Below the pieces are notes generated by a model. That model saw nothing but the letters and a program-made list of their open reading frames with translations. It did no database searches and had not been told where the DNA came from. From assembly GCA_002281475.1 (NCBI GenBank), contig NCGC01000025.1:1-32797 (forward strand): a stretch of 32,797 bases of DNA, in the 5' to 3' direction. The first letter of the stretch is position 1, and each line of letters starts with the position of its first letter. Of this stretch, positions 11,547 to 32,797 are shown one piece after another. This DNA is from Methylophilales bacterium 28-44-11 (lineage in GTDB: Bacteria > Pseudomonadota > Gammaproteobacteria > Burkholderiales > Methylophilaceae). Both the position numbers and the translations under genes were made by a program.

Positions 11547-12533
11547 TTAAAATGATTTGGGTCTGGTAAGGGCTGCTTGTATTTCAGCAATGGTTTTTTC
11601 AATCTCGTCATCGGTTAAATCGTCTGGTGCTGCATCCAATAATTTGGAGGGTTGCGTGGAGGGATTCATGATGGTGGTGGTTTGATCCAGTGGCATAGTA
11701 ATGGTCGATACCGCTTGAGGGTTGTGTTGGCGATCGCCCCATTGCAAGCCAATCGCACTCATGTTGTCACCGGTATGATCACTGTTTTTTTCAGAAGTGT
11801 CTAACAAGTGTGCAATGGTTTCGTCGATGACGCCAGACACTAAAATATTTTTGATTTCACGGTCATCAATCACATTCCAGATGCCATCAGTGCATAACAA
11901 AATAATGTCGCCATCCTGCAATTCATGACGGTCGGCTAGATCGATTTGCGGGATGTTATCGCCACCCAAACAATTGTAGATTTTATTGCGATAAGGATGT
12001 GTAGACATTTCTTCTTTGCTAATCAGGCCTTTGCGGTACATGGACTGCACAATCGAATGGTCTTCTGTTCTAAACAGCAAATGGCCGTCCCTAAAATGAT
12101 AAAGGCGTGAATCTCCCACATGCGCGCAATATAAAGTATTGCGTTGAATAATGGCTGCCACCACGGTGGTACGTGGTGATTCGATCAAATCATCCATTTG
12201 ACGCTTATTTTCAATCATGTCATGGATTTGCTGAATATGATCCGTTAAGAACTTAGCGGGACTTGGCAGCGTGGGTAATGCCAGTCGTTGGAAAGCCTCC
12301 GTCAACGTTTTCACTGCTAACTGTGCTGCAACTTCACCGTGGCGATGCAGTCGTTGGAAAGCCTCCGTCAACGTTTTCACTGCTAACTGTGCTGCAACTT
12401 CACCGTGGCGATGGCCACCCATGCCGTCTGCTAGTACCATCAGCAGCGCATCTTTGCTGTAGGAGTAAGCCAAGCGGTCTTGGTTATATGCACGAGGCCC
12501 TTGTCGGCTACTTTGATAAATCGTAAATTTCAT
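11547..12533 (-). CDS. PP2C-type Ser/Thr protein phosphatase with internal 22-residue duplication
   Basis: Metal-dependent protein phosphatase (PPM/PP2C) of 328 residues, probable partner of the kinase encoded just upstream. Metal-binding motifs are YNQDR (D19), VLADGMGGH (D36), LLCTDGIWN and HTGDNMSAI. CAHVGDSRLY is also present. A 35-40 residue tail after the catalytic domain is low-complexity and rich in Thr and Pro. Residues 41-62 are repeated exactly as 63-84, immediately after the DGMGG metal loop, so the first catalytic helix is doubled in frame. Its ATG overlaps the kinase stop by four bases (ATGA), so the two are translationally coupled. Whether the duplicated form folds and works is not known. 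Confidence 0.92.
   Translation of the reverse strand: MKFTIYQSSRQGPRAYNQDRLAYSYSKDALLMVLADGMGGHRHGEVAAQLAVKTLTEAFQRLHRHGEVAAQLAVKTLTEAFQRLALPTLPSPAKFLTDHIQQIHDMIENKRQMDDLIESPRTTVVAAIIQRNTLYCAHVGDSRLYHFRDGHLLFRTEDHSIVQSMYRKGLISKEEMSTHPYRNKIYNCLGGDNIPQIDLADRHELQDGDIILLCTDGIWNVIDDREIKNILVSGVIDETIAHLLDTSEKNSDHTGDNMSAIGLQWGDRQHNPQAVSTITMPLDQTTTIMNPSTQPSKLLDAAPDDLTDDEIEKTIAEIQAALTRPKSF
12282..12413. repeat. Exact 66-bp tandem duplication inside the PP2C gene
   Basis: Two identical 66-base units lie head to tail, 12282-12347 and 12348-12413, with no mismatch that I can find; the flanking bases differ. The unit is exactly 22 codons, so the frame is kept. Perfect identity points to a very recent event or to an assembly artefact. 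Confidence 0.95.
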
Positions 12534-13474
12534 AATGGCGTGTTCAATACTTTTTTAATTTTATTCACTAAACTACTTTTGGGACCATCTTGCGCTGGGC
12601 TGAGCATCATGATCTGCTTTTGCAATGAAAACACACTTTGAGGGCGTGCTAAATGGTCCAGTTTTAAGCATTCGTCAATTAACGTAAGCAATTCTTGTGA
12701 GTAAATATTATTACCCAACGATTTTGCCGGTTCTAAATTGTCTTTGGTCACCCTTAAATTAGCGGCTTGTGGCGTCGCACGATAAAGACATGCGTACATA
12801 CTCGCCCCTATGCTATAAATATCACTCCACGGCCCCAAGTGTTGACGCTCGTAATATTGCTCTGGCGGTGCAAAACCTGGGGTATAGCTTAATGGCACAT
12901 TCGATTTAGATTCCGCCAGTGTTTGCCTCGCTGAGCCAAAATCTAGCAACACCGGTGAACCGTCCAAGCGTATATAAATATTGGCGGGCTTAATATCAAG
13001 GTGCAACAATTTATGTGTGTGCACTTCACGCAATCCATTCAGCAACTCTGCAAACACGCGCCTTACAAAATTCTCTGAAATCGGATTTTCATGGGCTAGG
13101 ATATATTCTTGGAGCGATTTGCCTCGCTCATATTTCATCACCATATACACAGTATTGTTGGCTCTAAAAAAATTTAGTACGCGCACAATATTTTTGTGAT
13201 CAATCTTAGCCAAGGATAATCCCTCTTCAAAAAAGCTTTTTAAGCCTTGTTTGAATATGGCTAATTCACCATGGTCGTCTAACTGTACGGTCGCACCTTG
13301 ATTGCGTAATACCAAGCCTGTAGGCATGTATTCTTTAATGGCTACCACCTTTTTATTGGGGTCATGTGCCAAATATACAAAACTAAAACCACCAGAGCTC
13401 AGTACTTTGGTAATGGTGTAATCCTGCAATTTAAAGCCAATATCAAGCGCTTGATTTTTATTGGTAATGGCCAT
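12530..13474 (-). CDS. Hanks-type Ser/Thr protein kinase
   Basis: Eukaryotic-like cytosolic protein kinase of 314 residues. The glycine-rich loop is LSSGGFSFVY (25-34), the ATP-anchoring lysine K47 is in VAIKEYMP, the catalytic loop is HLDIKPAN (D160, N165), and the metal-binding DFGSA has D178. The activation-segment/P+1 region contains TPGFAPPEQY. HLD replaces the common HRD, which places it in the non-RD-like bacterial group. There is no membrane helix or external sensor domain, unlike PknB, so the kinase is probably soluble. Its stop overlaps the PP2C start, giving a kinase-phosphatase couple at the head of the rph-rdgB-recQ-hemW run. It is divergent from yicC (103-bp spacer). Confidence 0.94.
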   Translation of the reverse strand: MAITNKNQALDIGFKLQDYTITKVLSSGGFSFVYLAHDPNKKVVAIKEYMPTGLVLRNQGATVQLDDHGELAIFKQGLKSFFEEGLSLAKIDHKNIVRVLNFFRANNTVYMVMKYERGKSLQEYILAHENPISENFVRRVFAELLNGLREVHTHKLLHLDIKPANIYIRLDGSPVLLDFGSARQTLAESKSNVPLSYTPGFAPPEQYYERQHLGPWSDIYSIGASMYACLYRATPQAANLRVTKDNLEPAKSLGNNIYSQELLTLIDECLKLDHLARPQSVFSLQKQIMMLSPAQDGPKSSLVNKIKKVLNTPL

Positions 13475-14616: not shown

Positions 14617-16104
14617 ATGTCACACACCGTCGAAAAGTTCTTTGATGAAATGCAAGCCAATGTAGGCGATGTACGGAGTATCTACAAAGCGTATCAACAT
14701 TGGCTAAAAAATGTCCCTACGCAACAGCTAGCGGCAAAGCGCGCAGAAGCAGAATTGTTGTTTCGTCGGGTCGGCATTACTTTTAATGTGTACGGAGAGG
14801 CAGACGGTGCAGAGCGCTTAATCCCGTTCGATGTGATTCCACGCTTAATCTCAAGTCAAGAATGGGCACACCTGTCTGCTGGCGTGGTGCAACGCGTCCG
14901 CGCATTGAACATGTTCTTGCATGATATTTATCATAAACAAGACATTATCCAAGCGGGGATAGTGCCGTATACCATTTTAAGCAATCCACAATATCGCCCA
15001 GAGATGTTTGGTGTGGACGTGCCCAATCAAATTTACGCTCACATTGCTGGGGTGGATTTAGTGCGCACCAGCGAATCTCAATTTTATGTGTTAGAAGACA
15101 ATCTACGAACGCCATCTGGTGTGTCGTATATGTTGGAAAACCGCAAAATGATGATGCGCCTATTTCCAGACTTGTTTAGGCAATATGCAGTGGCACCAGT
15201 CGAGCATTATCCACAAGTATTACTGAACAATTTACGTTCAGTCGCGCAGTCTGGTGTACAAGACCCCACGGTAGTGTTGCTATCACCCGGCGCCTACAAC
15301 AGCGCTTATTTTGAGCACGCATTTTTGGCACAACAAATGGGGATCGAGCTGGTAGAAGGGCAAGATTTATTTGTACGCAATAATGCTGTGTTCATGCGAA
15401 CTACCCAAGGCCCAAGACGTGTCGATGTGATTTACCGCCGTATTGACGATGATTTTATCGACCCGCTGGTGTTCAAACCTGACTCAATGTTGGGTGTGCC
15501 AGGACTGTTATCTGTGTATCGCAATGGTGGTGTGACGCTGGCGAACGCCGTAGGCACAGGTGCGGCAGACGACAAAGCCACCTATATTTATGTCCCAGAA
15601 ATGATCAAGTTCTATTTAGGTGAAGAACCGATTTTGCAAAATGTACCGACTTATGAGTTGAGCAAAGAAGACGATTTAGCCTATGTACTCGATCATCTGG
15701 ATGAACTGGTGGTGAAGGAAGTGCAAGGCTCTGGAGGCTATGGCATGTTGGTTGGCCCAGCCGCCACTAAGCAAGAGCTGGCCGAATTTAAACTACGTAT
15801 TTTGTCTAGACCTTCAAGTTATATTGCACAACCAACGCTTGCACTGTCCACTTGTCCAACCTTGGTCGAGCAAGGCATTGCACCAAGACATGTGGATTTA
15901 AGACCATTTGTACTCTCGGGCAAATCGGTGAGTGTTGTGCCAGGGGGCTTATGCCGTGTTGCCTTAAAAGAAGGCTCATTGGTAGTAAATTCTTCACAAG
16001 GTGGCGGCACCAAAGATACTTGGGTATTAGAGCGAGATGATATCCAACCGCAAAAAACGTCACAAACCAACAAACAAGGTAAGAAAGAGGAAGTGGCATG
16101 TTAA
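14617..16104 (+). CDS. Circularly permuted ATP-grasp protein (amidoligase-like)
   Basis: A 495-residue cytosolic protein of the circularly permuted ATP-grasp family (formerly DUF404/DUF407). Diagnostic motifs are YVLEDNLRTPSGVSYMLENR (157-176), VDVIYRRIDDDFIDPL (269-284), GGVTLANAVGTGAADDK (304-320) and VVKEVQGSGGYGMLVGP (365-381, K367 likely binding ATP phosphate). ATP-grasp enzymes make carboxylate-amine bonds. Comparative genomics has proposed that this family forms peptide or isopeptide links together with its alpha-E and transglutaminase-like neighbours, but substrate and product are not established. The end overlaps the alpha-E gene by seven bases. The C-terminal 20 residues are Lys/Gln rich and probably disordered. 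Promoter elements suggest NtrC/sigma-54 control. Confidence 0.93.
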   Translation: MSHTVEKFFDEMQANVGDVRSIYKAYQHWLKNVPTQQLAAKRAEAELLFRRVGITFNVYGEADGAERLIPFDVIPRLISSQEWAHLSAGVVQRVRALNMFLHDIYHKQDIIQAGIVPYTILSNPQYRPEMFGVDVPNQIYAHIAGVDLVRTSESQFYVLEDNLRTPSGVSYMLENRKMMMRLFPDLFRQYAVAPVEHYPQVLLNNLRSVAQSGVQDPTVVLLSPGAYNSAYFEHAFLAQQMGIELVEGQDLFVRNNAVFMRTTQGPRRVDVIYRRIDDDFIDPLVFKPDSMLGVPGLLSVYRNGGVTLANAVGTGAADDKATYIYVPEMIKFYLGEEPILQNVPTYELSKEDDLAYVLDHLDELVVKEVQGSGGYGMLVGPAATKQELAEFKLRILSRPSSYIAQPTLALSTCPTLVEQGIAPRHVDLRPFVLSGKSVSVVPGGLCRVALKEGSLVVNSSQGGGTKDTWVLERDDIQPQKTSQTNKQGKKEEVAC

Positions 16105-20855: not shown

Positions 20856-22055
20856 ATGCAAATTGCAATCAAACCAAGTAAGCAAGCCAATAAAAAATTA
20901 GCACTGTTTAATCTTGGATTTCGCCCTTTCTTTTTAGGCGCCTGTCTTTTTGCAATAATTTCCATTGCACTGTGGATGCTGGTTTATTTTTCCTACATGA
21001 CTATCCCCTTTGATAACATTTCACAGAGCCAATGGCATGCGCACGAAATGCTTTATGGCTACAGCATGGCAGTGGTGGCTGGTTTTTTACTCACTGCGGT
21101 AAAAAATTGGACCGGCCTTCCAACCGTTTTTGGCCCGCCATTAATGTTGCTTTTTTTACTTTGGTGTGTAGCGCGCTTGCTGTTTTTGTTTGGCTCTACA
21201 TTTTTGCCTTGGGTAGCAGCCACAGATTTGTTGTTTGGACTGATACTCATCATAAGTTTGACTCACCCCATAGTTAATGCAAAACAATGGAAGCAACTGG
21301 CAGTGATTAGCAAAGTCACATTGTTATGGTTGGGCAATATTGTGTTTTATCTTGGGTGTTTCGGCTTGCTCAACAACGGCATGCAATACGCCATCAACGG
21401 TGCTGTCTTGTTATTCATCAGTTTGATTCTGATGATGGGTCGACGCGTCATTCCGTTTTTTATTGAAAGAGGCACCGAGACTAAAGTAGTGCTCAAGCAA
21501 TATCAATGGCTAGATCTCAGTATATTAGCATTGTTCATCGCGTTATTTATCAATGCAATGTCACTCAACCATGCAGTAATCACCACGCTATTGGCTTGGT
21601 CTTTATTTGTTTTAAATGGATATCGATTAATCAATTGGCATACTTCTGGCATCTGGCGCGTGCCTTTATTGTGGAGCTTGTATGTTGCGGCTTGGTTAAT
21701 CAATCTAGGATTTTTCTTTTACGGTTTACCCAGTCAACAGGGCAACTTTTCTATTCTGACCTTGCACCTTTTTACGATGGGTGGCATCGGCTTAATGACG
21801 TTGAGTATGATGTCGCGCGTAGCATTGGGGCATACTGGTCGTGATATTAAAACGCCATCGCCATGGATAGGTTGGGCATTTGGTATGTTGATTGTAAGTG
21901 TGCTGTTTCGGGCGATAGTACCGATGTTCACAACGCAGTTTTATCAAAGTTGGGTGTTGACCGCTTCCATTTTATGGATGGTGAGTTTTGCAATATTTGC
22001 GAGTATTTACATCCCAATCCTGCTCAAGCCAAGAACAGACGGTGCTTTTGGCTAA
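20856..22055 (+). CDS. nnrS: NnrS family haem-copper membrane protein
   Basis: A 399-residue polytopic inner-membrane protein with about twelve hydrophobic helices. Family landmarks are the N-terminal LFNLGFRPFFLGACLFA (18-34), QWHAHEMLYGYSMAVVAGFLL (split across residues 60-80, with histidines that may bind haem), MGRRVIPFFIERG, LHLFTMGGIGLMTLSMMSRV and ALGHTGR. NnrS binds haem and copper and protects cells from nitric oxide, often under NO- or oxygen-responsive regulators; no such gene for denitrification is next to it. The ATG at 20856 follows a weak AAAGGG ribosome site. The frame and length agree with the family. Confidence 0.93.
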   Translation: MQIAIKPSKQANKKLALFNLGFRPFFLGACLFAIISIALWMLVYFSYMTIPFDNISQSQWHAHEMLYGYSMAVVAGFLLTAVKNWTGLPTVFGPPLMLLFLLWCVARLLFLFGSTFLPWVAATDLLFGLILIISLTHPIVNAKQWKQLAVISKVTLLWLGNIVFYLGCFGLLNNGMQYAINGAVLLFISLILMMGRRVIPFFIERGTETKVVLKQYQWLDLSILALFIALFINAMSLNHAVITTLLAWSLFVLNGYRLINWHTSGIWRVPLLWSLYVAAWLINLGFFFYGLPSQQGNFSILTLHLFTMGGIGLMTLSMMSRVALGHTGRDIKTPSPWIGWAFGMLIVSVLFRAIVPMFTTQFYQSWVLTASILWMVSFAIFASIYIPILLKPRTDGAFG

Positions 22056-22617: not shown

Positions 22618-24426
22618 TCAGGCTTGCTGATCAGTAAAATACAATTGGTTGAGTTGATCGCTACTCAATGGACGATCGAACAAATATCCTTGGCCTTCTT
22701 GGCATTGTCGATTCACTAAAAACGCCAATTGTTCAGGGGTTTCAATGCCTTCTGCAATCACTTTGAGTTTTAAGCTGTGCGCCATACTAATAATGGCACT
22801 CACAATGATGCCATCATCCGCCACTGCTTTAATATCGTTTACAAATGAATGGTCAATTTTCAGTACATCAATTGGAAACTGCTGCAAATAGCTTAAGCTG
22901 GAATAGCCTGTGCCAAAGTCATCTACCACCAGTATTAAGCCCATAGACTTGAGTTGTTGCAAAATAATAGCGCTGGCTTCTGCATCGCGCATCAGTACGG
23001 TTTCTGTTACTTCTAGTTCAATCCAATCAGGATCTATACCAGTCTCTAATAAAGTTGCTTGCACATCTTCCACAAAGTTTTTATGCATAAACTCGGGTGC
23101 AGAAATATTCACCGCAACAGTCATTTTGGGCAAACCGCTGTCTTTCCAGCGTTTGGCTTGCTCACATGCTTCACGCAATACCCAACGGCCAATTGGAATA
23201 ATCAAGCCTGAGTCTTCAGACACGGATAAAAAACGCTCTGGATTGATTTCCCCCCATTCAGGATGTTGCCAGCGAATCAGTGCTTCCACCCCTGTGATCT
23301 GTAACGTGGTTAGATTAAATTTAGGTTGATACACCAAATGCAATTGATTTTCTTCTTGGGCAATACTTAAATAGACCTCAAGTTTTTGGCGCTCAATTAC
23401 CCGCGTATTCATCGCATTTTTAAAAAATTGAAAGTTGTTGCGACCTTTTTCTTTAGCATAATACATCGCTGTATCAGCGTTTTTAATCAAGGTTTCTGCG
23501 TCTAATCCATCGGTAGGAAACACGCTAATGCCTATACTGGTGGTCACTTGCAACTGGTGATTCGCCAATTTATGCGGAATAGTAAATGTTTCCAAAATTT
23601 TCTCGGCAGTCAACGCAGCATCTTCACCATTTTTGCTATCCGCTAACAAGATAATAAATTCGTCACCACCGGTGCGGCTGACAGTGTCACTGGCTCTCAC
23701 GCTAGCATTTAAACTTGCAGTCACTTGCTGTAATACTTGGTCACCGATGTCATGACCCAAAGAATCGTTAATGAATTTAAAATTATCTAAATCTAAAAAA
23801 AGCAGCGCAATTTGTGTGTCATTACGTCTCGCTGCTTCAATCGCATGCCCGATGCGGTCGTTTAGTAATACACGATTGGGTAAATTGGTCAGGAAATCAT
23901 GCTGGGCAAGATGCGCCATTTTAATGGCCATCGCTTTGGAGGTGCTGACATCATGAAACACGATGACTACACCTGTCAGTTTACCCTCTGCATTATGAAT
24001 AGGGGATGAAGAATCTTGAATCGCAACTTCACTGCCGTTGCGTTGGATTAATACAGTATCAGAAGCAAGCTCAACGGGTTTGTTCGTCTGCAACACAATT
24101 TCTACAGGATTTTGGCAAGCTTTGCGAGTCACGCCGTGGACGATATTAAAAATACGCCGTATCGGCTGGCCATAGGCTTCATCTTTAGACCAGCCCGTCA
24201 GTTGCTCAGCAGCATTGTTTAAATAATCAATATTGCCATGCATATCGGTGCACAAAATGGCATCGCTAATAGAGTTTAGTGCGATTTCTGCACGGGTTTT
24301 TTCTTTGTATGACAACACATCAATCACCATTGACAATGGTGAAGGCACGAGATGCAAGTAAGGAATAGCCGAAATCCTGTCTGGTTTCGACAGTACCTTT
24401 TCACTGGTTCTATTGATTATTTGCAT
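22618..24426 (-). CDS. PAS-GGDEF-EAL c-di-GMP signalling protein
   Basis: A 602-residue, apparently soluble protein with three domains: PAS (about 45-162), GGDEF (about 172-335) and EAL (about 345-595). The cyclase active site GGDEF (253-257) is intact, and RASD (244-247), five residues before it, is a product-inhibition site. In the EAL domain the EAL motif (381-383), NISAPEF, ELEVTET, DDFGTGYSSLSYL, LKIDHSFV and AEGIET are all present, so phosphodiesterase activity is likely too. Such dual proteins often favour one activity depending on the PAS signal. No membrane segment is seen. It is separated from the Crp/Fnr gene by a 485-bp spacer. Confidence 0.95.
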   Translation of the reverse strand: MQIINRTSEKVLSKPDRISAIPYLHLVPSPLSMVIDVLSYKEKTRAEIALNSISDAILCTDMHGNIDYLNNAAEQLTGWSKDEAYGQPIRRIFNIVHGVTRKACQNPVEIVLQTNKPVELASDTVLIQRNGSEVAIQDSSSPIHNAEGKLTGVVIVFHDVSTSKAMAIKMAHLAQHDFLTNLPNRVLLNDRIGHAIEAARRNDTQIALLFLDLDNFKFINDSLGHDIGDQVLQQVTASLNASVRASDTVSRTGGDEFIILLADSKNGEDAALTAEKILETFTIPHKLANHQLQVTTSIGISVFPTDGLDAETLIKNADTAMYYAKEKGRNNFQFFKNAMNTRVIERQKLEVYLSIAQEENQLHLVYQPKFNLTTLQITGVEALIRWQHPEWGEINPERFLSVSEDSGLIIPIGRWVLREACEQAKRWKDSGLPKMTVAVNISAPEFMHKNFVEDVQATLLETGIDPDWIELEVTETVLMRDAEASAIILQQLKSMGLILVVDDFGTGYSSLSYLQQFPIDVLKIDHSFVNDIKAVADDGIIVSAIISMAHSLKLKVIAEGIETPEQLAFLVNRQCQEGQGYLFDRPLSSDQLNQLYFTDQQA

Positions 24427-24911: not shown

Positions 24912-25640
24912 TTATTTTTTAACCTTTGGAAGCAAACGCTCATATTCCTCTGTGACAGTTGCATAGCATTCACATACACGTTCTTCAAGTTTTTTGCGAT
25001 TTGCCAATGTGATGCACCCACGTGTACACGTAATCAGCCCCTCTTTTTGTAACTTGCTGGAGGTCTCACTCACGCTTTCTCTGCGAACACCCAACAATTT
25101 GGAAATTAATTCTTGTGTAATAAATACTTCGTTGTCGTGCATTCTATCAATCGTCATTAGCAGCCAGCGAGAAAATCGCTCATCAGTAGAGTGATGTTGA
25201 TTACATACCGCAGTTTGTGAGGTCTGTGCAATTAAAGCTTGAGTGTATAAAAGCGCAATGCGTTGAATTTGACCACCCAATGCAAATTCGCGTTTGAGGA
25301 TTTTTCTACTGAGTCTGAAAGCATAGCCTGGACATTGCACTTCTGTACTACTCGGCAAGCTTTCTCCGCCCATGTAGATGGAAATACCTATCATACCTTC
25401 ATTGCCAACGATTGCGATTTCACTCGACGAGCCATTTTCTAAATCATATATCAGCGAGACAATGCCACTGACCGGAAAGTGAACAAATTCAACATGATCA
25501 CCTGCTTCAGACAAAACCAGTCCTAGCGGTAGTTCTACAAGTTGGAGGTCTGGGAGAATGCGTTCAAAATCTGTTTTGTTGAGCGTCGCTAAGATGTTGT
25601 TATCTCTGGGGTTATGAGTAACTTGAATGGGTTCTGACAT
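24912..25640 (-). CDS. Crp/Fnr-family transcription regulator
   Basis: A 242-residue regulator with an N-terminal cyclic-nucleotide-binding fold (about 15-130, including LPLGLVLSEAGDHVEFVHFP) and a C-terminal winged helix (about 160-225) with the recognition segment LLGVRRESVSETSSKLQKEG. No Fnr-type N-terminal cysteine cluster is seen, so an oxygen-sensing iron-sulphur centre is unlikely, and the cAMP-binding Arg-Ser pair is not evident. I chose ATG 25640 because the usual family N-terminus (IQVTHNPRDNNILATL) begins there; the open frame continues back to 25787. The ligand is unknown. Confidence 0.87.
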   Translation of the reverse strand: MSEPIQVTHNPRDNNILATLNKTDFERILPDLQLVELPLGLVLSEAGDHVEFVHFPVSGIVSLIYDLENGSSSEIAIVGNEGMIGISIYMGGESLPSSTEVQCPGYAFRLSRKILKREFALGGQIQRIALLYTQALIAQTSQTAVCNQHHSTDERFSRWLLMTIDRMHDNEVFITQELISKLLGVRRESVSETSSKLQKEGLITCTRGCITLANRKKLEERVCECYATVTEEYERLLPKVKK

Positions 25641-25779
25641 GGCCGTGCTCTCAATCTCTACTTTGTTTAAATTCGGGTTGAATGACAAAGTAATAACGAC
25701 TAAAGTTGTCGAAAGGATATCGACAAATTTGCTTAAGTCAACAATTCGTTTTCGATAGATTTGTTTAAGCCTGGTGTTG

Positions 25780-25920
25780 GATGACAATTAAATGACATCA
25801 CAATCACTAGGAATGCTTTACTAAATCACCATATTCCGCGCATGTTGCTCAACAAAAATAAAAGAAAATAACATGCGTTTTTTTATTATTATTTTTTTTT
25901 ATTTTTTGTTGTTGTTTGCC
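25780..25920. other. Junction between bacterial and fungal-type DNA
   Basis: Within about 140 bases the sequence changes from AT-rich bacterial DNA to GC-rich DNA with eukaryotic gene structure. The border is a low-complexity tract (25875-25915), mostly T with ATT and GTT steps. No insertion sequence, integrase gene, attachment-site repeat or target duplication is visible. The exact joint cannot be fixed because the tract itself could come from either side. Confidence 0.85.
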
Positions 25921-26466
25921 CCTGCCGGTCGGTTTGCTCCTGGCCTCGCCTTCAGCCGCCTTCCAACACCAACACCATTACGCTGGCATCCGCTTCTCAG
26001 CATCCTGCAAGCAAAACTCCGCCTCGCAAGCTCGCCAGGTAGGCAGGGGAAGCCCGCAGCATGGAGAGCAGGCGGGCTTCTCTCGCTGCGGCTCCGGGTC
26101 GTGCGGCTCAGCAGCCACCACCGGCTGGGCGCCAGACTGGCCCGGCAACATTCACTGCTCCGCCGATGCCGACATCCTTTCGTCCCAACCCTATTCACTC
26201 AGAACAGCGTTACATAATCCAAACGCAGAAACAGGCTGCCTCGCCGGCGCGCGTTCGTCATCCAAATCTGCCCTTTCTCTCTCCCTCGCCCTCGCTGGAA
26301 ACCTGCCCTCATTCTCCTCCCTCCCCCCTCCAGGTCGTCAGGCGTGTCGTGATCTGCACCTCGACTCTGCTCGCAACTTGCCGGCATGTAAGGAAACCCC
26401 CCCTTCCCCACCTACCTCCTCCCCTCTTCCGACGCTGAATCCTGGCTCACGCATCCAACTCCCAGC
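25921..26466 (+). promoter_or_regulatory. CT-rich region upstream of the SNF2-like gene
   Basis: No supportable coding gene is seen in these 546 bases. Pyrimidine-rich runs (around 26274-26294 and 26310-26335) are typical of fungal promoters and leaders. The open frames on both strands here are low-complexity and lack recognisable domains. The leader of the downstream gene may contain an intron that I cannot define. Confidence 0.5.
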
Positions 26467-29400
26467 ATGCCTGGCGATCGGCCCCCGTCGATGGCGGGGA
26501 CTGCTTTTCCGACGTCATGGTCCCCCGCCGACCTGGGCGATGAAGCTGAGCCCACAACACGACTATCCGTGAAGTTCAACCAGAGGGACATTGCCGAGTA
26601 TGCCACCTTCACAATCCAGGAACGGCGGCGCCAACAGGACAAGTCGGCAAATTGGCCACCATCTCTGTTAGGCGCCAACGCCGTCCCTGTTTCAGTGCCC
26701 TTGGAGACCCTGGAGAAGACCCAGTCTACTCTTGACCTCCACGCAATGATGGGTCATTCGATATACATGGTGAAGCGGCGACGCCGGCTAGACGGCTCAA
26801 GGCGCGCGACGGGCCTCCCGTGGACATTCGACGTCGACGACGAGTTTCCCCTCACGCCCTATACGATAGCACAAATTATCGACTGCTATCACAAACAGGG
26901 GCCTGTCGATCATGGCAACGACGAGACCTGGGCAGCAGTCGAAGACTTTGTCGAGGAACTGAAGTTCGGCGGCCGCGGCGCCGCCCTGCACGCCCTGATG
27001 ACGACCCTTCGCAATGGCCGTGGCGCCAGCGCCTATGCGAATGCGCATCCTGAGGACTTCCATGGCATCGATGACCTGGTCATGCAAACGATGAAGCTGG
27101 ACATGGCGTCGGCAGCGACACCGCCACCGCCAGACGTCGGAAGAAGTGTGCGCCAAGTACGGCCTTGACCCGCGGCACTTGTCCCTGTACCCGAACCAGG
27201 GCGTGCAACCACTCACGCCACACCAAGTTGCGGACCTGGACATCCTCATGCACCGCGTCGAAGCAGGCCTCAGTATCATGCTGAGCAATGACAGTGGCCT
27301 CGGCAAGACTCGGGAGCTCTACGCTCTTGTCGTCCTGCACACCCGCCTTTTGGAGAAAAAGCGCACCTACGACAGCACTGTGGCGTTCAAGCCTTCCCTC
27401 ATCATCAGCACTGTTCCGAAGATCGAGCAGACAGCGCAGGAGTCGACACACTTCCCGGACATCACTCTCTTTGTGTACTACTGCGATTCTGGCCCGAGTG
27501 GCTCTGCTCAGAACACGCGTCACGTCGGAAACCTGAGTTCCATTTTGGAGAAGCTGGACCCCGCGGACCCCAAGACTGGCAGAACGGTCATTCTCACGAC
27601 CTACCAGACTCTGCAATTGACGGAAGTTTCGGTTTCTGAATCGCCGTTTGTCTTTCGCCAAAAGGTGCAACCTCAAGCATGTCGGCCGCAGGGACATGAT
27701 GCCACAAGCGAGGATGACGCCGACGAGAGAGCCGTCGCTCTTCGCTATGAAACGGATCAAGAGGTGTTGTGGCGATGCCAGAACACACCTCGCGTATCCA
27801 ACCCAAGAAGCGAATCCTTGCCCCGAGCGCTCAGCGGCACATATCCATGGCATTCGGTGATGTTTGTGGAAGCAGGAGACGTCCCTGAGTCGGACGGCAT
27901 TTCGACCAAGTACAGCCTGCGCAACCCAGGATTAAATAACCACCAGTTTGAATTCCTCATCGTCGACGAGGCCCACGTGGCGTGCCAGTTGAATGGCGCA
28001 TTCAACAACACGCTGAGGCTCTTCAACTGGGAAAAGTTGCTCTGGGTTACCGGAATGGTCCTCACGAGGAGCCTGCGGGAAATACTGAGCCCAACCTACC
28101 TGATGAGCCAAAAACTGGGCTTTACAGTATCAGACTGGCACACGCTAGGACTCGGTGACTTGCAGCTCCTCTTTCACCCGGCCTACGACCCTACCGCACT
28201 CACCAACGACATTGACGACCTTCGCTGTGGTGGGCTGCTCCATCCCAAGTCCCCCTTTATGGGCGAAATCGATGGACATGTTTGCAAGCGGCTGTGGGAC
28301 GAGCATGGTGTCCGGGCCTGGATGATCAATACTTACCTGATCAACGAGGTTGGAGAGGCACGAGGTTGGGGTTTCCAGGTCGGAGCCAACGTCATACGAC
28401 CACTTCTGGATATGCTGTCTCTGCGGCGGACATTCAACACACCAATCACCCTGCCCGCGGGCAAGACGGTATACCCTGCTCGGCAGTTGCCTCCCATGAC
28501 CGTGTTGACGGAGGAGGTAGCATTTTCCAAGGAAAGGGTCCCTGTAATGCGCAAGGTAGTGCGCACCCAGGGCAGTGTCATGGCCGAGAGCTTCTTGTCA
28601 TGTGGCGGCAGCGGCAGCCTCAGCTTGGCGGCCCATCGCATTGGCCAATACGTCGCGCATGATTACCGAGCGCTGCAGCTCATTATCCAGCAGGATTCTT
28701 GCCTCGACGTGTTCGGCCCCAATCTTGAGGAGTCAGCGCGGTTTCTTCGGCAGTTGCGCGCTGGCGTCGCCACGATGCCCTCCCATACGCACACTGGCGA
28801 GCGTTTGGACAACAACGACGAATCTCCGCCAGTCACGGACCCTGACAACCTCGAAGACATTCGAAAGCTAGTTGAGAACGCCCCATGTGGATTTGCCAGC
28901 TACTACGTCAACATCGCCAAGTTCGATTTTAGTTATCCTCCATTCATGGACAACGCGATATTGCTCGAATCGATGCTCTCGAGCAGTCCCGTTATGGCGC
29001 GAGCATGTCGCCTCATTGTCCGCCATGTCCTTGGCCGCAACGAGCGAGTCCTGATTGTCGTTGAAACGGACTTTTTGCAGGAGTGAGTTCGCCGCGCCGC
29101 CTTTCCCTGCGGTCTCAACGAAACAGTGTGTAACGATGTGCTAACACTACGGCCGCAGGCTCCTGATCACGGTGTGCGACGACCTCCTTAGCCTCCGAGT
29201 CAATACATGCCGTGCCAAGGATCGCGCACACGACACGTTAAAGCAGGTCAGGGAGTTCAATGACCCGGACAGCGGCTCGCAGGTTTTCATTGCCAATATG
29301 AGCATGCTTTCGACCGGCGTCAACCTCCACACATGCTGCCACCTGGGCATTACGGTATCGTTCGCGCAAAACGCCAACCTCATGCGGCAGGTGCATTATC

Positions 29401-30065
29401 TGCTCCATCGGCTCGGACAGACGAAGCCAGTAACTTGGCATGCCATCAAGGCCATTGATTCGTTCCACGATCACCAGGAGCTGCATTGCGTCGCAAAGCT
29501 CGCAAGCCAACTGGCCGCCGAGCTCGACCTGCAGACGGGATTCGGCGACGGCATCGAGGAGGTCATTGTTTTCGAGTGCATGCGGGCCTACTATCATCAC
29601 TCATTCAATCGGCTTGCCTGGGTGCTCTTGAAGCCCTCGGACCCGACGGGGTTCCGCTACTACGCGGACAACACGATCAAACTTGGTCATGCATTGTCCA
29701 TCATCGCCAAGATGGCGATTTCGACAGAGGGTAAGGAGCACCGGGCATATTTCTTGAGGGACATAGGAAGGTACCTCGTCCAGACGCTCACCGAGTGGGT
29801 CTCCGACAAGCCTGTCGAGGACTTGTACCGTAGGTCGCTCGCGACCGGTGCCGAGCTGTGGGACAACGAGGAGGCCGACAAAGAAATCGCCCAAGTCCTC
29901 GAGCAAGTGCGTGCCAGGTGTGAAGAGGATGAAGCGGAGGAGGAGGCGCGCCAGACGCACCTTGCGCTTCAGAAGGAGCGAACCCGGCAGCGCGATGCGT
30001 TCAAGGACCCCAACTTTGGTGACGACTGGGAGGTGGAGGATGACTTCTGGGCCACTGAGGAGTAG
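26467..30065 (+). CDS. Fungal SNF2-like ATPase/helicase protein, three-exon model
   Basis: Proposed exons 26467-27078, 27134-29082 and 29159-30065 give 1,155 residues. The ATPase core is recognisable but divergent: Walker A-like SNDSGLGKT (K262), DEAH-type LIVDEAHVACQ (482-485), and WVTGMVLTR where SNF2 proteins usually have TGTPLQN. In the last exon, FIANMSMLSTGVNLHTC and HRLGQTKPV match motifs V and VI of the SNF2 helicase C domain. SNF2 proteins move or remodel nucleosomes or DNA complexes using ATP; the changed motif III and long inserts make the activity here uncertain. The C-terminus is acidic and coiled-coil-like. The second splice is convincing; the first has a weak donor, and a one-base frameshift near 27130 would explain the data as well. 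Convergent with the oxidase gene. Confidence 0.75.
27079..27133 (+). other. Candidate 55-bp intron (weak donor) or frameshift site
   Basis: The reading frame changes here. A GT-AG segment, GTCATG to CGCCAG, of 55 bases restores the frame exactly (204 codons before, ACG TCG GAA after). The donor is non-consensus and no good branch site is visible. One extra C in the CCGCCACCGCC run would explain the shift as well. Confidence 0.4.
29083..29158 (+). other. Spliceosomal intron in the SNF2-like gene
   Basis: Donor GTGAGT, branch site TGCTAAC (29139-29145) and acceptor CCGCAG span 76 bases. Removal joins GA to G (a Glu codon) and keeps the frame from the ATPase lobe into the helicase C-terminal lobe. 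Confidence 0.9.
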
Positions 30066-30528
30066 ATTGCAGATATAAGAACAAAAAAAAAAAGCAAAAA
30101 ACAAATGTAGATGTAATCATCGACGCTTAACATGCCCGTCCTCCGTGCGTTCCCTGCTTCTCGCCTCTGGCAGGCCTGACTTTTCCAATGCTTCGCATCG
30201 TTTAATACCACCGCCAACATGAACACTGCCACATCGGAGGCGCGATCACTATGCCACGCTTGATGATTCCGCTGCTGGGCAGTCGACCATTGTCCCAACG
30301 TCAAAACGAAACGACCGCGAAAGAGGCATCTTGCAGTGCATCCATGCACGCAGCTTTACAGGGCCAACGAACGAGCTCTTGCGTATGTATCATAAAGGGA
30401 CTCGCCGTTTTGCGGCGTGCTTCATGCCAAGGTGGTTTCGCTTCGTGTTGGCCAAATCACGACGCACTCCTCGTGCTGTTGCCAAACCCCAAGCCACCCC
30501 CGGATGGCGCCAACGGCGAAGCCACGGC
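30066..30528. other. Spacer between convergent fungal genes
   Basis: These 463 bases follow the stop of the SNF2-like gene and the 3' end of the oxidase gene. An A-rich tract (30083-30107) just after the first stop may mark its 3' processing region. Several open frames exist on both strands but none has recognisable features; I see no gene. Confidence 0.55.
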
Positions 30529-32570
30529 CTACCTCTTCCTACAGAGCCGTCCATCCCCCGTTTCAACCCAGCGCTCATTGCCCACACATGGCGCGCACCA
30601 GAAAACGTCGGTCGGATCCACCGCTCTCTTGATCTTGAGCAGGCGCTCGTAGTTGCTGCCCCAGAACGTGTGCTGCCAGTCCTTCTCAAACGGCAGCGCC
30701 TGCGCCATGCCGAAGTGTCGCGTCAGCATATCTATCCACTGCGTCGTCGCTTTTCGGTGCGGCTCAACGTACCTCGTTTAGATAGGCGCCTGCCTTTGGC
30801 GTGAGAGCGCGCAGTGGCTCCATCGACGAGTCGAGAAGCTTGACGGTTTCCTGCTCCGCCGTCTTGTTGAAGGGCGGGAAGCCGGTTGCGGACACTAGGC
30901 ACATGCGCCGCGGTCAGAGAGAAAGTCAATGTCCCGGACGAAGCGGCACAAACGACTTACAGGCGTGGACGTAGGTGTTTCGCCAGGCTGGGTTGACGGA
31001 GTTGCCCCCTCGAGGCTTTGCGTTTTGCACGCCCTTTCCGCCGACCATGAAGAGCGACATGCCACCGCTCGGCAGGCTCGCCGCCTGGATCGCCTTGCCA
31101 AGCGCCTTTGGATCGCCCTTCAACGTCTTCCCGTCCACCAGCCTAGAGACGATGTAGGAGCTATTTCCCGCAAAGGCCTGGTCGTAGTTCTTGTCAAACC
31201 AGGCGCGGAACGTGGGGAACTCCTCCGAGATGAGGAACAGGAACGCCTGGCCGGGCCAGCGCTGCTTGATGGTGTCGTTGATGGGCTTGAAGATGTCTTC
31301 CAGGAAGCCAGGGCCCTTGTCCTGCACGAAGCCGAAGCCCATGACGCCGGCGATATCCGTTGGTGCTCCCGGCGCCGGAACCGGATTCTTCATGCCGAGG
31401 CTGGCGTAATTGTAGCCGGACAGGCCGCCCTTGTCCATCAAGTACGGAATCTGCGAAGACAGGTACGCTATGAGGTCAAGGAGGAAAGGGCTTTTTGGGT
31501 CCGTGATGCCCATCCAGGACAGGGAGGTGATTTTGGGCGGCGGGTGCGTCCACATGGTGACCTTGGTCATGACGCCAAAAGTGCTGCCGCCACCCTGCAA
31601 GCACAATGTCAGAATCAGCAGCATCTCACTTGGGGCACCTTGGGCCCAATAAAAAAAGGCGACTTACACCTCTGAGCGCCCAGAAAAGGTCGCTGTGTTG
31701 GTCCTCGTTCGCTACGAGAATTTGCCCCTGCGGTGTGACGACCTCGACCTGAATGACATTGTCCGCGGCGAGACCGTAACGCGGCGCAAGCGTCGAGTGC
31801 CCGCCGCCGGAGATGTATCCACCGACCGAGACGCTCTTTGCGCCGCCGCCAACGACGGTTTGGTTGTGCGCGTCGGCGGCGGTGTAGATGTCGTACATCT
31901 CTGTGCCCCCGCCGACAGTGACGGCGCTGCCCTTGAGCACCTTGCCCGAGCCGGCGAGTGCGAAGTTGCCCTCGTGGAACTCGATGCTGTTCATGTGGTG
32001 GACCCAGATGGACAGAGAGCCGGGGGCATTGGAGCGGCCGAGGTAGTCGTGGCCGGAGGACTTGACGACAAGTCGAACAGTGTGCTTGCGGGCTTCGCGT
32101 TGTATCAGTTAGCCTAGACCGAGAGCCGGACCTGCTCCGCTATGAATGCAAAACGCACCAAAGTCCACGGCGGCCTTTACATGCGACGCCGTCGTCGCGT
32201 TAACGACGTAGATCGGGTACCCCTTCCCGCTGCAGGGGTATTGGGCATTTGGCAGGCAAGTGTCGTTGGCAAACTGGTCCATCATCATGGACACCGGGTC
32301 CGCGGCGTGCCAGTCGTAGCTGCTCCAGCCCCTTTGCGCCGCGGGGCACTGCTCCGGGTTGTATGTCGGCTGGTCCGGGTGGCACACGGCGCCGGGTGGG
32401 GCCGGGGCGAGCAGGCGGCCCCCGACGGTGGAGTTGAGCGCGTTCCAGGCGCCGGGGGAGGGCCAGGCCCGTGAGCCGGGAGCCGCCTTGCAGCTGTTGG
32501 TGCCGGGGCAGCTTGCAGAGGCCGAGCCCAGGAGGCACGGGATGGACAGGACGAGCTGTTCGAGATGCAT
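30529..32570 (-). CDS. Secreted FAD-linked oxidase (isoamyl alcohol oxidase/BBE type), five exons
   Basis: Exons on the minus strand: 32570-32159, 32092-31668, 31594-30961, 30894-30773 and 30699-30529, giving 587 residues with every phase matched. The N-terminus is a likely signal peptide (hydrophobic core 5-15, cut near SASA at 16-19), so it should be secreted. An FAD-binding type 4 domain follows: VVKSSGHDYLGRS with H152, the expected covalent flavin site; GGYISGGGHSTLAPRYGL; LFWALRGGGGSTFGV. The C-terminal BBE segment has TFWGSNYERLLKIKRAVDP. The Cys used for a second flavin link in berberine-bridge enzymes is replaced around Y230, so mono-covalent attachment is likely. Fungal relatives oxidise alcohols, sugars or secondary metabolites; the substrate is unknown. 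A start at 32636 is possible but would bury the signal peptide. Confidence 0.85.
30700..30772 (-). other. Intron 4 of the FAD oxidase gene
   Basis: Donor GTACGT, branch-like GCTGAC and acceptor GCGCAG, 73 bases, phase 0. Removal joins GAYLNE to ALPFEKDWQ, restoring the BBE segment. Confidence 0.85.
30895..30960 (-). other. Intron 3 of the FAD oxidase gene
   Basis: Donor GTAAGT, acceptor GCCTAG, 66 bases, phase 1. Removal joins NTYVHA to LSATGFPPFNK. A CTGAC-type branch site is present (within CTCTCTGACC). Confidence 0.85.
31595..31667 (-). other. Intron 2 of the FAD oxidase gene
   Basis: Donor GTAAGT, branch TCTGACA, acceptor TTGCAG, 73 bases, phase 0. Removal creates the family motif ALRGGGGSTFGV. 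Confidence 0.92.
32093..32158 (-). other. Intron 1 of the FAD oxidase gene
   Basis: Donor GTGCGT, branch GGCTAAC, acceptor GCGAAG, 66 bases, phase 1. Removal joins AAVDF to ARKHTVRLVV, just before the flavin-binding SSGHDY motif. Confidence 0.88.
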
Positions 32571-32797
32571 TTTGGCGGGTGTCGCCTGTGCAGGTTCAAT
32601 CACAAAGTCGACGACAAGACACAATGTATGCAACACGCATCACCCGTACGCTCCTATATATATATAAATATACCAATGTAGCTACTAGCACCCGGGACGG
32701 CTTGTATCCAGCAGCGTGTAGGCGTGCCGGGCGACGGCTCAATGTTTTGGGGGAGGTGCGTCACCGTCTCTCGCGACATGATGCTGTAAAAGGTGCC
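32571..32797 (-). promoter_or_regulatory. Upstream region of the FAD oxidase gene with TATA tract
   Basis: An 18-base TA-rich run at 32655-32672 lies about 85-100 bases before the chosen ATG, a normal place for a fungal TATA box. Nothing else recognisable is seen to the window end. Confidence 0.55.

Follow-up and report, generated by a model that had tools for sequence, protein, structure and literature searches.

The DNA analyzed here, a stretch of 32,797 bp that makes up the whole of contig C176 of draft genome G000 (referred to below as the window), is in our view, with very high confidence, a chimeric contig created by the artificial joining of two genomes that were sequenced together. 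From position 1 to ~25,900 it consists of Methylophilaceae chromosome and from ~25,918 to 32,797 of DNA of fungal type (~6.9 kb), and the junction between the two is almost certainly an artifact of assembly or library construction rather than the product of natural gene transfer. An earlier note on this DNA had claimed a fusion of bacterial to fungal sequence, and this is confirmed by differences between the two halves in GC, GC3, family matches and introns. Its suggestion that a chimeric contig or a contaminated assembly is the likeliest explanation is likewise supported, as an interpretation, by the tests that were run. Each half extends to a contig end, the fungal segment being terminal because the contig stops at 32,797. 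The features on which the discussion rests are as follows.

1 to 25,642: Methylophilaceae chromosome segment (open reading frames; 11 distinct genes scanned with Pfam or NCBIfam)
20,856 to 22,055, + strand: nnrS (PF05940, 9.2e-106; 81% protein identity to the same-genus genome G016)
22,618 to 24,426, - strand: PAS-GGDEF-EAL cyclic-di-GMP signaling gene (Pfam)
24,912 to 25,642, - strand: Crp/Fnr-type regulator gene, the last bacterial gene before the joint (PF13545, 4.8e-13; PF00027, 7.5e-7)
25,850 to 25,911: imperfect hairpin with arms at 25,850-25,871 and 25,889-25,911, one mismatch and one gap
25,878 to 25,919: T/ATT/GTT tract, with the composition breakpoint at 25,917
25,920 to 26,466: GC-rich stretch preceding the SNF2-like gene, with no assigned gene
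26,467 to 30,065, + strand: SNF2-related gene (PF00176, 3.6e-7)
30,530 to 32,570, - strand: FAD oxidase gene of the VAO/BBE type (587 aa when spliced; lower end approximate)

The contrast in composition is pronounced. The comparison of GC on the two sides of the joint, which the earlier note had proposed as a check, gives 0.36-0.52 for 1-kb windows lying wholly to the left and 0.56-0.64 for those wholly to the right, with values of 0.415 and 0.520 for the two that straddle it. GC3 is 0.40-0.51 in the 16 bacterial genes tested versus 0.68-0.87 in the six right-hand reading frames tested. A change-point analysis with order-3 Markov models, trained on positions 1-25,000 and 26,501-32,797, places the breakpoint at 25,917, which falls inside the interval 25,780-25,920 to which the joint had been assigned. 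As expected of a chimeric contig, then, the halves differ in both composition and taxonomic affinity, and the change occurs at a single sharp breakpoint in a low-complexity stretch that comprises a T tract and a hairpin.

GC alone is not decisive, since the family also includes G032, whose GC is 0.573 in the stretch read, and the halves could not be told apart by the count of intron-like motifs (0.46 and 0.50 per kb on the two strands to the left, 0.29 and 0.87 to the right). The fungal reading of the right half is based instead on the oxidase and on the frames recovered by splicing. In all, five introns were identified, each 66-76 bp long and bounded by GT and AG, and their removal restores long frames in both right-hand genes, bearing out the claim that the GC-rich part carries fungal introns. 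Those of the oxidase gene lie at 32,158-32,093, 31,667-31,595, 30,960-30,895 and 30,772-30,700 (66, 73, 66 and 73 bp, respectively). A 34-bp version of the fourth was considered and rejected, as the 73-bp version yields a C terminus that aligns with MtVAO615. The product contains the FAD_binding_4 (PF01565, 5.1e-22) and BBE (PF08031, 1e-13) domains and aligns with MtVAO615, a solved structure in the PDB, across residues 24-585 of its 587 (E 2.3e-83). It therefore resembles the MtVAO615-type VAO/BBE oxidases (PDB entries 6f72, 6f73 and 6f74) in domain content and over almost its full length; it is nevertheless a divergent homologue, and the likeness is informative solely about what the right half is.

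The proposition that this half is instead GC-rich bacterial DNA of another species draws on the fact that GC values of 0.56-0.64 are common in bacteria, including the family member just mentioned, on the presence of SNF2-related domains in all 14 prokaryotic control genomes, on the occurrence of the oxidase superfamily in bacteria also (EncM, which we take to be of bacterial origin, is among the matches), and on the failure of the motif count to tell the halves apart. The five introns whose excision restores long frames count against it, as does the alignment with EncM, which, unlike that with MtVAO615, is partial and confined to residues 119-296, and we regard this proposition as having a next to negligible probability. 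Together with the form of the introns, the origin of MtVAO615, which we assume to be fungal, ties the right half to a filamentous ascomycete.

The SNF2-related gene consists of an open reading frame at 26,467-27,168 (233 codons), followed by a second part at 27,146-29,082, an intron at 29,083-29,158 and a last part at 29,159-30,065. The intron is 76 bp long, begins with GTGAGT, contains a CTAAC branch-like motif and ends in CAG. When the second and last parts are spliced, a stop-free frame of 947 codons results, the product of which matches PF00176 at 9.6e-7. The SNF2 family is widespread in prokaryotes, as the matches in 14 of 14 control genomes attest; within G000, the SNF2 model matches only C176. 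Comparison with solved structures gave just two weak matches, to a chromatin-remodeling ATPase (E 0.0078) and to ISWI (E 0.02). A search for close relatives confirmed none among 84,980 bacterial and archaeal species genomes (18 pattern matches) and none among viral contigs (one pattern match). A frame break without evident intron occurs near 27,130-27,150, reflecting either sequencing error or decay. It is the sole decay-like feature encountered; the earlier remark on the absence of decay was made of the bacterial side and does not extend to the fungal one.

These properties also bear on the idea that 6.9 kb or more of fungal DNA was acquired, and is now carried, by the bacterium. In its favor, C176 is grouped with the bacterial genome, and the fungal segment matches only itself in G000, with no further copy in the draft. 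Against it, both right-hand genes retain spliceosomal introns, so that a bacterium would not be expected to make the complete proteins from them, their GC3 is far from that of the host, and the SNF2-like protein has no confirmed relative in the bacterial and archaeal collection searched. A transfer from fungus to bacterium is, on this evidence, extremely improbable.

The left half reads as the bacterium's own chromosome, a conclusion that follows from the single copies of argH and hemC and from a gene order that is partly that of relatives. Ten of the 11 distinct bacterial genes scanned with Pfam or NCBIfam match a bacterial-type family, the families represented being hemC, argH, hemW, recQ, PP2C-phosphatase-like, Ser/Thr-kinase-like, HD-domain, nnrS, PAS-GGDEF-EAL and Crp/Fnr-type; the open reading frame at 14,617-16,104 has no NCBIfam match. 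NCBIfam cut-offs were passed by hemC, argH, hemW and recQ and not by the phosphatase-like or kinase-like gene. These last two lie side by side at 11,547-13,474, and the best NCBIfam match of the kinase-like gene, far under the cut-off, is the MAD6 defense kinase. From their family matches, hemC and argH encode hydroxymethylbilane synthase and argininosuccinate lyase, respectively. Each is present once in G000, in both cases on C176, although in a draft that is 88% complete a second copy could be missing.

Conservation of the neighborhood was followed from nnrS onward. The first five NnrS relatives listed share 71-80% identity and come from MAGs labeled Methylophilus or Methylotenera, and those of lower rank, among the best 80 of 343 relatives, come from other proteobacteria and beyond. 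By NnrS, G016 is the closest same-genus genome, and the order nnrS, small open reading frame, EAL gene is common to C176 and G016, the latter having ~4 kb more between the last two. This comparison was read with the window's own five loci set aside, along with any match whose end lay below 17,000. The pairing of the EAL gene with crp in the same orientation is found in G028 and G032, which belong to other genera of the family, and thus at two of the three family loci examined; in both, additional frames precede crp on its upstream side. At the third locus, that of G033, the crp-like gene lacks an EAL partner; the crp-like genes of G016 are located elsewhere or in the opposite orientation.

The Crp/Fnr-type gene that closes the bacterial half has relatives at no more than 53% identity. 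Its open frame reaches 25,787, but most close matches begin to align at residue 46-60, which suggests that the gene starts near 25,642. Paralogues that are 31-52% identical occur in G000 at C88:7641-8351, C88:5874-6512, C113:5364-6038 and C161:2058-2763, the match on C161 being split into two pieces that lie in different frames. Genes of this type lie close to each other in several relatives.

It might be argued that the contig is fungal and that a large Methylophilaceae fragment was transferred into a fungal chromosome, an alternative that the earlier note had already considered the less likely. The join is free of gaps in the contig, a recent event need not show decay, and exchange between bacteria and fungi is on record (PMC8862208). 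The restriction of argH and hemC within the draft to C176 weakens this alternative, as it makes the bacterial half look like the bacterium's own chromosome. The ~25.9 kb of bacterial genes moreover keep their bacterial GC3, and their order partly matches that of relatives. Neither the Pfam scan (four bacterial and six right-hand frames) nor the NCBIfam scan (10 bacterial genes) revealed a mobile-element family, in agreement with the previous statement that no mobile-element gene marks the joint. We therefore judge transfer in this direction to be exceedingly unlikely. Natural transfer in general would be indicated by amelioration or by a second resident copy of core genes, and what is observed is a distinct GC3 on each side and single copies of argH and hemC in an 88% complete draft. 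Transferred DNA would also be expected to have host sequence on either side; in C176 each half reaches a contig end, so that only its inner flank is visible. Taking both directions together, a real and recent integration, in which a Methylophilaceae segment of at least ~25.9 kb was united with the chromosome of a filamentous fungus at a T tract able to form a hairpin, is very unlikely.

The joint itself has a distinctive structure. Between 25,878 and 25,917, 33 of 40 bases are T, and no other 40-mer of the window, whichever strand is read, is as rich in T. No second copy of the tract was detected in G000 with a pattern consisting of its 23-base core and allowing up to 3 mismatches, for which the reversed control pattern matched twice. 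The tract forms the right arm of the imperfect hairpin, and fungal composition starts just past this arm. The alignment score of the arms was reached by one of 2000 shuffled pairs, and the DNA fold has a predicted energy of -12.7 kcal/mol (z -2.87), with one of 200 shuffles equally stable; as the region was chosen after the fact and is of low complexity, these statistics are only suggestive. A search for repeats over 25,600-26,100 returned two direct-repeat families, both to the left of the joint, and 13 inverted pairs, the hairpin among them. A 10-nt perfect inverted pair (25,772-25,781 and 25,962-25,971) spans the joint, as do some shorter or less perfect pairs. There is no tRNA in the window.

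How the artificial join came about can be pictured as follows. The left part is chromosome from the draft's Methylophilaceae bacterium and runs out in non-coding DNA that contains a T-rich hairpin; the right part comes from the nucleus of a filamentous fungus that was presumably present in the same sample. The assembler most likely crossed from one genome to the other via the low-complexity T/ATT tract, or a chimera formed there during amplification or library preparation, and the hybrid may then have stayed with the bacterium because ~79% of the contig is bacterial. Chimeric contigs are treated as one kind of contamination in PMC8862208, and joins in assembly graphs at stretches common to two species are described in PMC8171044. 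C176 resembles the inter-species chimeric contigs of these two accounts in that unrelated genomes abut, with no gap, in sequence of low complexity and each half is self-consistent. It differs from those of PMC8171044, where the stretches are common to similar species, in that the partners here come from different domains. A stretch that joins two genomes would be expected in both of them; in the bacterial draft, the pattern search detected the tract only at the joint. Chimeras formed during amplification prime at complementary stretches of 2-21 nt, according to PMC1855051, and the joint of C176 similarly adjoins complementary stretches that are able to pair. In that paper, however, more than 85% of the MDA rearrangements are inverted sequences, unlike the join seen here, and self-priming by hairpins is excluded as a major route. 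Both routes, a walk across low-complexity sequence in the graph and a chimera arising in amplification, are compatible with the joint.

The remainder of the draft was surveyed for further fungal DNA. G000 comprises 2,241,812 bases in 234 contigs, with a completeness of 88.13% and a contamination score of 0.42%, and, from its fragmentation and the MAG labels of its relatives, we infer that it is a metagenome bin. Forty-three of the other 233 contigs were sampled, 40 of them over no more than their initial 3,000 bases. Twenty-nine were readable, with a GC of 0.385-0.472, and for 16 of these the far end was measured as well, giving 0.393-0.460. The other 14 are all shorter than 3,000 bases and appear as N. 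No further fungus-like contig was present among the 29 readable contigs sampled. Such isolation of the fungal piece would follow if contigs made up wholly of fungal DNA had been excluded from the draft and one that is four-fifths bacterial had been retained. CheckM contamination scores rest on prokaryotic markers (PMC8862208), and this limit would apply to the 0.42% figure of G000.

The finding serves only as a warning, in that a bacterial draft with a contamination score of 0.42% includes genuine chromosome to which ~6.9 kb of fungal sequence is fused. Automated annotation could call bacterial SNF2 and FAD oxidase genes from C176, or an inter-domain transfer, and we recommend splitting the contig near 25,917. 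The finding is of use as a flag of quality and not as a statement about biology.
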